Shown: positions 45,380-47,817 of the stretch, piece after piece
Position numbering within the stretch: the stretch's first letter is position 1
How the letters are laid out: every line of letters begins with the position of its first letter
Source of the DNA: Helicobacteraceae bacterium
Lineage (GTDB): Bacteria > Campylobacterota > Campylobacteria > Campylobacterales > Sulfurimonadaceae
Length of the DNA: 55,264 nucleotides
Direction of reading: 5' to 3'
Assembly: GCA_013138865.1 (NCBI GenBank)
Contig: WTBY01000046.1
Span: forward strand, 1 to 55,264
Notes under the pieces: model-generated
Told to the model about the DNA's origin: nothing
The model's input: the letters and a program-made list of their open reading frames with translations, nothing else
Database searches by the model: none
Position numbers and translations under genes: made by a program

Positions 45380-46543
45380 ATGAAACTTAATAAAAAGCTA
45401 ATAACTCTAAGTGTTGTAGTTACGATCGCACTAAGTGGTTGTGGTGGAAGTTCTACTTCTACTACTGAAAATACTGCTTACTATATAGACAATGCGGTAA
45501 GTGGTTTGAAGTGTACTTCGGGTACTACAACAACTACAACAGACTCAAGTGGTGCTTTTACTTATGAAGATGGAAAGACTACTAGCTGTAAAGTTGGTGG
45601 TATTACTCTTCCAACCATTCCAGTTATGACTTCTTCTGCACCCTATTACCAACTTCAAGATACAAAAAGTGCTATGTTGTTACACTCTCTTGATCATGAC
45701 AATGACTCTAGCAATGGAATTAGCATAGATCCAAAAGTTATTGATGCTATTAACAAAAAAGGAACTACTTCAGTACCTACAAACAGTAGTTCATTAGCTG
45801 ATCTAGTACAATATGTAGGAATTGCAGTTGGTTCAGACTTTAGAGGTCAGGTTAAAGATGAAACAGCTATAAACAAACATTTAGCAACGCAAGCAATACT
45901 CACGGACAAACTAAATAGTGATACTAAAGCAAACCTTGACGCATTAGGAAACGATCTATTTAACCAACCAGACAACGACGATACATGTGGTATTAGACAA
46001 GTTCTTTTTTGTAAAGATGTTTTAAATAAGAACTACTCTTATAGAGGTGACATACTTCCAGTATGGACACAGATGAGAACAGCGCAACTCACTAACTATA
46101 GTGCAAGTAGCTTACCTGCTAACTTCTCTTATGATGTACCAACAGTGTATACTCATACAGCAGTTCTTGCAGTAAACGGCGGACCAGAATCACTTCCTAG
46201 TAGTGTTGTAGAAATAGCACCATCACTAGGTTTAAAACTAGTTAACCTGTATGTTGATAAAAGTGCAGTCCAAACAATGTTTCCAATGGTAGATACTGAA
46301 ATAACACTAATAGATAAGTTTGCTTCAGTTACTACTAAAAGTTATAGTGTTAGTAGTAATGTAAGTGAAGTAATCACTAATCCTAATAGCTACTATATGA
46401 TTGTAATTAATAATGGTACACATTGGATCGGTGCAACTACAACAACTATCTATAATAGTCTAAATGCACATAAACAACCTTATGATGAGAAATACTTAAA
46501 TAGTGTTGAGTTTGGTGTTATTATGGAGTTTCAAAAAAAGTAA
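45380..46543 (+). CDS. Lipoprotein of unknown function in the putative regulon
   Basis: A 387-residue lipoprotein precursor: basic start, hydrophobic helix and lipobox LSGC followed by GGSSTSTT. Residues 33-80 look like a beta-sandwich opening (AYYIDNAVSGLKCTSGTTTT, SSGAFTYEDGKT) of the kind found in Campylobacterota surface lipoproteins. Several Cys occur in the middle (DDTCGIRQVLFCKDV). No domain is recognised with confidence. It has its own direct-repeat promoter and is followed by the decarboxylase-like gene after 57 bases. Confidence 0.75.
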   Translation: MKLNKKLITLSVVVTIALSGCGGSSTSTTENTAYYIDNAVSGLKCTSGTTTTTTDSSGAFTYEDGKTTSCKVGGITLPTIPVMTSSAPYYQLQDTKSAMLLHSLDHDNDSSNGISIDPKVIDAINKKGTTSVPTNSSSLADLVQYVGIAVGSDFRGQVKDETAINKHLATQAILTDKLNSDTKANLDALGNDLFNQPDNDDTCGIRQVLFCKDVLNKNYSYRGDILPVWTQMRTAQLTNYSASSLPANFSYDVPTVYTHTAVLAVNGGPESLPSSVVEIAPSLGLKLVNLYVDKSAVQTMFPMVDTEITLIDKFASVTTKSYSVSSNVSEVITNPNSYYMIVINNGTHWIGATTTTIYNSLNAHKQPYDEKYLNSVEFGVIMEFQKK

Positions 46544-46600
46544 TATTTAAAAAGTTAAGCCGTTATAAAATAAAAAATGAAAAATAAAAAAGGATAAAAA

Positions 46601-47728
46601 ATGAAAATATGGATGAAGCTACTAAAGGTTCTATTCGTTACTACTCTTATAACGAGTTCTATTTATGCAGATATGACAAAGAAGAGTTATGAAAGTGTTA
46701 TAACAAACTTAGAGAGTCTAATTAAGACAACACCAAATTTAAAAAATGACATAAAAAAAGTGTTGAAACTACAAAATAACCGATCATACTATTGGAATAA
46801 CAAAGATGTTAAATATTTTGTTAATTACTTCAAAGAGTGGCTTATCTTTAACCCAACACCATGGAATGGTCCAAAATATATACAACCATGGGATGCACTT
46901 GCTAACTCTGAAGGTAGTGAAATACTTTTTAACAACAATATTTTCAGCTCGTGGTTTATAGATTTTTTAAATGCTCGTGGTGAATATTTAAGAACAACAG
47001 AGTCCCTCTCAGGTGGAGTACTTAAAAATTGGGAAAGTTTTCCAGATGTTAAGCTCGATACTTTTAAACCACCTTATAACCAAAGTAGTTATGACTCTTT
47101 TGAAGATATATTTTTAAGAGTTCCAAAAAAAGAGTTTAATATTGCAGGTGAAAATGATGAGAGAGTCATAGTTTCACCAGCAAGTGGAAAAATTCATCAA
47201 ATATATTCTAAGACTCTTGACTCTAACTTTAAGATCAAAAGAGATGTACTTAATATTAGAGAATCACTTAACAATAGTGCATATTCACAAAAGTTTATTG
47301 GTGGAAAAATGGTTGATATTCTTTTATGGTTTACAGATTATCACTATTTTCACTCACCAGTTTCAGGTGAGATCGTGGATGTTGGTGAGTATGCAGGTTC
47401 ATACAACTATAACTTCCAAGATGTTGACTGGTATAAAGCGTTAGCTAAACATAAGCGTGTTTCTTACATTATTAAAACTAAAGAGTTTGGTTTAGTTGCC
47501 ATGATACCTGTTGGTTTTTGGGGTGTTGGATCAATTATTACAGATAAAAAAATAAAAAAAGGTTACAAGATTACTAAAGGCGAAAAAATTGGTCGTTTTG
47601 GTTATGGTGGATCTTCTATTTTACTAGTTTTTGAACCTAATGCCGTTAACTTCTCTATTGAAGATATTGACAAAGATTGGGAAGAAGTAAAAGTTGGTAC
47701 TCAAATTGGTATAGCTACTAAAAAATGA
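46601..47728 (+). CDS. Secreted phosphatidylserine decarboxylase-related protein
   Basis: A 375-residue protein with a signal peptide (LLKVLFVTTLITSSIYADMT). The C-terminal half follows the phosphatidylserine decarboxylase fold: FEDIFLRVPKKEFNIAGEND, VIVSPASGKIHQI, LWFTDYHYFHSPVSGEIVDV and RFGYGGSSILLVFEPNAV. The processing-site Ser (GGSS, residues 336-339) and His251 are kept, but the usual PADG Asp is Ser195. Normal enzymes are cytoplasmic-facing membrane proteins, so export is unusual. It may act on phospholipid or another carboxylate, or be non-catalytic. The ribosome site AAAGGA is strong. Confidence 0.85.
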   Translation: MKIWMKLLKVLFVTTLITSSIYADMTKKSYESVITNLESLIKTTPNLKNDIKKVLKLQNNRSYYWNNKDVKYFVNYFKEWLIFNPTPWNGPKYIQPWDALANSEGSEILFNNNIFSSWFIDFLNARGEYLRTTESLSGGVLKNWESFPDVKLDTFKPPYNQSSYDSFEDIFLRVPKKEFNIAGENDERVIVSPASGKIHQIYSKTLDSNFKIKRDVLNIRESLNNSAYSQKFIGGKMVDILLWFTDYHYFHSPVSGEIVDVGEYAGSYNYNFQDVDWYKALAKHKRVSYIIKTKEFGLVAMIPVGFWGVGSIITDKKIKKGYKITKGEKIGRFGYGGSSILLVFEPNAVNFSIEDIDKDWEEVKVGTQIGIATKK

Positions 47729-47817
47729 ATTTAAAGTTCTACTTATTTAGCATTATAAGTACGATCGTATTTACTGGTTGTCTAGGAGAAAATACTAACA
47801 AGAGTCCTAATTTTTAG
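47725..47817 (+). CDS. Tiny lipoprotein-like ORF (30 aa), probably truncated by frameshift
   Basis: The ATG overlaps the stop of the decarboxylase-like gene (ATGA). The frame reads MNLKFYLFSIISTIVFTGCL then GENTNKSPNF and stops, giving a complete lipoprotein signal with lipobox FTGC but almost no mature part. If one T of the five-T run at 47811-47815 is dropped, the frame would go on as LVSGVSGVVT and stop soon after. It is either a very small lipoprotein or the start of a decayed one. Confidence 0.4.
   Translation: MNLKFYLFSIISTIVFTGCLGENTNKSPNF

Follow-up and report, generated by a model that had tools for sequence, protein, structure and literature searches.

We have identified a gene whose product, on an estimate slightly better than even, is a Sec-exported, self-maturing periplasmic pyruvoyl decarboxylase from the PsiD-like branch of the phosphatidylserine decarboxylase (PSD) superfamily, with an amino-acid-like substrate and with Asp246 replacing the Asp of the PADG motif. 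The gene lies in a 55,264-nucleotide contig of a Helicobacteraceae bacterium, the whole of which we refer to as the window. The proposal draws on the architecture of the protein, its conservation and phylogeny, its retained Asp, His and Ser residues, and the loss of a residue that contacts the lipid phosphate in canonical enzymes; from these we infer its cleavage, its periplasmic location, its decarboxylating activity and the class of its substrate.

In the course of events we propose, the signal peptide would be removed on Sec export and the proenzyme would then cut itself between G337 and S338, with His248 driving self-cleavage and Asp246 assisting in place of the missing PADG Asp. Cleavage would leave the alpha chain, of 38 residues, with a pyruvoyl group, which in the periplasm would form a Schiff base with a small amino-acid-like substrate, and decarboxylation would follow. 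Phosphatidylserine (PS) would be left to the separate canonical Psd of the same genome.

Architecture and family placement

The initial annotation, made from the sequence alone, had described an open reading frame with a signal peptide, DYHYFHSP and GGSS motifs and PASG in place of PADG (Ser195), and the sequence bears out its coordinates, strand and motifs (Table 1). The gene starts with an ATG at 46601, and its product carries PASG, D246-Y-H248-Y-F-H251-S-P and YGGSS. The signal peptide, MKIWMKLLKVLFVTTLITSSIYA followed by DM, has a short h-region and Ala at -1.

Table 1. Features of the PSD-like gene and its product in the window
Feature	Position	Strand	Evidence
Gene of PSD-like protein, exported by prediction, 375 aa	46601..47728	+	ORF; PF02666 E 8.4e-34; orthologues L048 and L049 under purifying selection
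AAGGA, probable ribosome-binding site	46590..46594	+	sequence
Signal peptide, residues 1-23, predicted cleavage between SIYA and D	46601..46669	+	sequence; hydrophobicity and charge rule; relatives compared
N-terminal domain, residues 28-158, probable homologue of the PSDC domain found in PsiD-type proteins	46682..47074	+	profile-profile comparison
PS_Dcarbxylase domain (PF02666), residues 172-370	47114..47710	+	
Phe179 replacing near-invariant Arg (E. coli R76)	47135..47137	+	R in 63/66 PSD-like rows, F in PASG trio only
Ser195 (AGT) replacing PADG Asp (E. coli D90)	47183..47185	+	D/E in 126/129 rows
Leu241 at site of phosphate-contacting E. coli PSD Tyr137	47321..47323	+	alignment; Y137 role from PMC7952604
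Asp246, equivalent of E. coli D142 (complements D90 in self-cleavage)	47336..47338	+	
His248 to His251 (E. coli H144 and H147)	47342..47353	+	His248 invariant in 129/129 rows
GGSS (G336-G337-S338-S339); predicted self-cleavage between G337 and S338, pyruvoyl from Ser338	47606..47617	+	
Predicted alpha chain, residues 338-375 (38 residues)			

The match to PF02666 reaches 117.4 bits against a Pfam gathering cut-off of 22, whereas the NCBIfam equivalog cut-offs for PSD and ASD are all missed (best 99.3 bits against 371); for TIGR00163 the score is 71.2 bits against a cut-off of 111.75. In a tree of 113 rows (residue counts throughout are from 129 aligned rows), a split (100*) separates E. coli PSD and the Psd of this genome from the window protein, which lies in a branch of 66 rows (100*) that also holds the L-tryptophan decarboxylase PsiD of Psilocybe cubensis (PDB 8x4q, 8zia; 8x4q in the tree) and the PsiD-like structure 9jer. 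The window protein's subclade, of 22 rows, differs from that of PsiD. Shared with PsiD are a probable PSDC-like N-terminal domain joined to PF02666, the GG/S site, the invariant first His and the absence of Tyr or Arg at the phosphate-contacting site. Full-length profile-profile comparison of the window group with PsiD-type proteins gives an E of 1.8e-58, and the N-terminal parts alone, compared with PSDC-bearing PsiD-type proteins, give a probability of 97.2 and an E of 4.6e-11 (reversed control, 0.1). The Pfam model for PSDC (PF12588) has no match in the window protein and matches 5 of 12 group members weakly (best E 0.0022). PsiD differs in that its PADG site carries Glu and its DYH site Ala, opposite to the arrangement in the window protein; its chain also shows no visible signal peptide, whereas the window protein has a predicted one.

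With canonical PSD (E. coli, PDB 7cnw and 6l06) the window protein shares the PF02666 fold, DYHxxH, the self-cleavage site and the expected pyruvoyl chemistry; canonical enzymes differ in forming a separate clade, in having Asp at both acid sites and in using Tyr or Arg at position 137 for phosphate. The E. coli enzyme is, moreover, cytoplasmic and bound to the membrane via three N-terminal amphipathic helices (PMC7952604).

The 3.03 Mb draft genome holds two further PF02666 genes. One (L001) encodes a complete canonical Psd with SPCDS, DYHRYH and MGST. The other (L003:1315-2013, G000:C54), which follows ftsH, encodes a short protein without DYHxxH and with NCGEST at the expected GS site; judged by these motifs, it appears to fit the part of a non-catalytic PSD relative better than the window protein does.

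Ser195 and the acid that may assist self-cleavage

In the alignment, Ser at position 195 is confined to the window protein and a pair of orthologues, against Asp in all 63 canonical rows. The orthologues came from an alignment-guided scan of one genome per species across 84,980 species; a scan of genome contigs with a single-protein query gave no match. They lie in metagenome-assembled genomes of Candidatus Muiribacteriota (L048, 72% identity to the window protein) and Desulfobacteraceae (L049, 68%), and both carry PASG and a signal peptide. The next relatives, proteins of Candidatus Fermentibacteraceae and Sabulitectum (L050 and L051) at 51% identity, share the predicted signal peptide, the domains, TDYHHFHSP and YGGSS, but keep both the PADG Asp and the Arg (ARP) that are replaced in the PASG trio. 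Between L048 and L049, dN is 0.12 and dS 0.87; between the window gene and either of them, dN is 0.19 and dS is saturated or nearly so. This pattern indicates that purifying selection holds in the trio, which argues against decay, and the presence of PASG in three separate genomes makes a sequencing error a very unlikely source of Ser195. The contig of L049 also carries a cut-down second copy of the PASG orthologue (L159:2425-2829, G430:C1170; 134 aa, from DYHYFH onward), which has YDGSS rather than YGGSS and is probably a degenerate duplicate.

The initial annotation had called the protein one lacking the catalytic Asp, which holds for the PADG Asp (Ser195) and fails for the Asp of DYHxxH, present as D246. 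In the E. coli enzyme, S254 is activated mainly by H144, and D142, the Asp of D-Y-H144-R-V-H147, complements D90 (PMC7952604). The D90N and D90A mutants are completely processed and decarboxylate PS normally, and single D142 mutants behave in the same way (Cho et al., 2021; PMC7952604); only D90A/D142A stays uncut in lysates, and even this mutant is cleaved after purification (PMC7952604). Since D246, both His residues and the GG/S site are retained (D246, H248, H251 and GGSS in all PASG members of the alignment) and D90 is dispensable in E. coli, self-cleavage of the window protein is to be expected. The protein can thus probably still activate itself, with the second Asp standing in for the lost one.

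These data bear directly on the earlier argument that the altered triad points to a different mode of maturation or to a binding-only role, which is not supported given mature, active D90 mutants, complementation by D142 (PMC7952604) and the retention of D246. By this comparison, D246 appears to come close to a nearby Asp doing the same job, the finding that the initial annotation had named as counting against its own reading. We accordingly regard as unlikely a pseudoenzyme whose proenzyme stays uncut and whose fold serves as a binding protein in the envelope. PASG speaks for it, together with the replacement of a near-invariant Arg in the three proteins that carry PASG, but the trio conserves GGSS, His248, His251 and Asp246 alike, D90A alone does not block maturation in E. 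coli (PMC7952604), and the truly degenerate L003 of the same genome, which has neither the His motif nor the GS site, shows how a decayed member would look.

The placement of acids across the PSD-like branch is consistent with self-cleavage assisted by the second Asp. Members have an acid at the first site only (as in PsiD, with Glu there and Ala at the second), at both sites or, in the PASG trio, at the second only; every row of the branch keeps an acid at one site at least. The loss of D90 and that of D142 are mutually exclusive in the expected direction, a pattern that rests on one clade and is not significant. The distribution agrees with a second-Asp mechanism and stops short of proving it, because a single second-site-only clade is too few for significance. 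The crystallised PsiD beta chains end at the GG of the predicted cleavage site. No convincing candidate for a replacement acid gained by the trio was seen near the site by sequence. A strict Arg-Asp pair was considered as an explanation of the double change and rejected: several canonical Campylobacterota PSDs without the Arg keep the Asp, so that Arg to Phe179 and Asp to Ser195 are not strictly coupled.

Substrate and genomic company

The periplasmic substrate of the window protein is probably a small amino compound and not a lipid. A different substrate had already been put forward from export and the altered triad; the suggestion gains support not from PASG but from the phylogeny, the lost phosphate-contacting Tyr or Arg and the genomic company of a relative. 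Y137 of E. coli PSD contacts the lipid phosphate (PMC7952604). Tyr or Arg occupies this site in all 63 canonical rows and in 4 of the 66 PSD-like rows, a clade character that reflects shared ancestry and not 66 independent events; the window protein has Leu241. PsiD, for its part, cleaves itself and decarboxylates tryptophan without PLP, tolerating substituents on the ring (PMC12603985).

A periplasmic PSD, converting PS in the inner membrane's outer leaflet, or external PS, to phosphatidylethanolamine, seems improbable to us. It would fit the PF02666 domain with its His and cleavage site intact as well as the full PS activity of E. coli D90 mutants (PMC7952604), and the loss of the Tyr137 equivalent does not in itself exclude PS, because E. 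coli Y137F alone retains about half of its PS activity. Against it stand the replacement of the phosphate-contacting Tyr or Arg by Leu241 together with differences in the region of E. coli S166 (also seen in the alignment), the position of the window protein outside the canonical PSD clade, and the complete Psd already in the genome.

The amino-acid-like substrate that we prefer is not free of difficulty. To our knowledge, PsiD, an amino acid decarboxylase, represents the only characterised enzyme type of the PSD-like branch; that it belongs to another subclade weighs against our proposal, as does the change from Arg to Phe179, for which the proposal does not account.

The neighbours of the window gene (lipoproteins of unknown function and SelO) are uninformative, and no conserved neighbourhood was seen for the PASG trio, the window's neighbours not being found beside the orthologues. 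A lipoprotein gene on the same strand (45380-46543, +) ends 57 bases upstream; it was rejected as a dedicated partner, since the genome holds a paralogue of it with 80% identity and several partial ones at other sites, and proteins related to its N-terminal part are many. Downstream, a tiny ORF (47725-47817, +; MNLKFYLFSIISTIVFTGCLGENTNKSPNF) overlaps the stop codon of the PSD-like gene (ATGA); it has a lipoprotein-like signal and almost no mature part, and may be a remnant or a micro-lipoprotein. Phage or plasmid origin was also rejected, with only distant PSD-family matches found.

A relative offers what may be the best contextual hint to function, a single case transferred from another genome. 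In the Campylobacterota genome G299, a cluster of pyruvoyl-dependent decarboxylases, exported by prediction (L043:2059-13172; G299:C1, about 900058-911171), includes L017, a PSD-like protein of the same 22-row subclade as the window protein. The signal-peptide proteins of this locus comprise, besides L017, a histidine decarboxylase (PF02329), an arginine decarboxylase (PF01862) fused to a PSD-like domain, an asparaginase and a C69 dipeptidase; nearby lie a porin of the OprD type and a binding protein of family 5. Genes for HDC or PvlArgDC, exported or not, are absent from the genome of the window. In another Campylobacterota genome (L045:7761-11079, G040:C12), a PsiD-like gene without a signal peptide adjoins a protein-arginine deiminase (PF03068) gene.

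Predicted export and distribution of the PSD-like branch

Export, as first proposed, gains support from the signal peptides predicted for the window protein and for the four relatives closest to it, although their N-terminal sequences are divergent; the window protein and its relatives show the n, h and c regions typical of a predicted cleavable signal peptide. By a simple hydrophobicity and charge rule, 33 of the 66 branch rows have signal peptides, and alternative starts judged by eye add at least three (L048, L140 and a second L059 protein), so that at least 36 of 66 look exported; several Bacteroidales members look like lipoproteins. Because the pyruvoyl cofactor comes from the enzyme's own serine, Sec export would need no cofactor loading. 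Among 397 Campylobacterota genomes, matches to the query better than E 1e-12 occur only in the window's genome, G366 and G299, and all three are exported PSD-like proteins by prediction; such proteins are rare within this phylum. Tandem arrangements also occur: a Candidatus Omnitrophota metagenome-assembled genome has a PSD-like pair, both exported by prediction, near M24 peptidase and creatininase-family genes (L064:6667-9185), and in L059:8064-11093 one of two tandem PSD-like genes is exported by prediction. On the canonical side of the tree, nine Bacteroidota/Chlorobiota PSDs (L065, L069, L071, L073, L076, L078, L081, L092 and L093) begin with a Lys/Arg-rich stretch followed by one hydrophobic helix, for which the positive-inside rule would put the catalytic domain in the periplasm.

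Least probable, in our estimation, is that PASG (with Phe179) slows cleavage until after export, when Asp246 or an export-side factor would complete it: PASG is conserved in three genomes and E. coli double Asp mutants are slow yet eventually cleave (PMC7952604), but E. coli single D90 mutants are mostly cleaved early, and many exported relatives retain PADG, PADC or PTDC, so that export does not need PASG.

The exported PSD-like branch is widespread, and we found no description of it in the literature searched. Its members match the PSD family and could easily receive the annotation phosphatidylserine decarboxylase, an assignment to a lipid pathway that would mislead. More tentatively, and at less than even confidence, bacteria of many phyla may export pyruvoyl decarboxylases that mature by themselves, of the PSD-like type and, in a single Campylobacterota genome, of the histidine and arginine types as well. 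Such enzymes would produce amines and use up protons in the periplasm with no need to import a cofactor, and the PASG trio would be a variant that matures by the second Asp alone. The window protein, with the second Asp only, is the equivalent in nature of the D90 mutants of E. coli, and PsiD has the first acid only; a comparison of the two would directly show on which acid the maturation of PSD-type enzymes relies. In a wider sense, the PSD-like branch suggests extracytoplasmic amino acid decarboxylation by enzymes that make their own cofactor.
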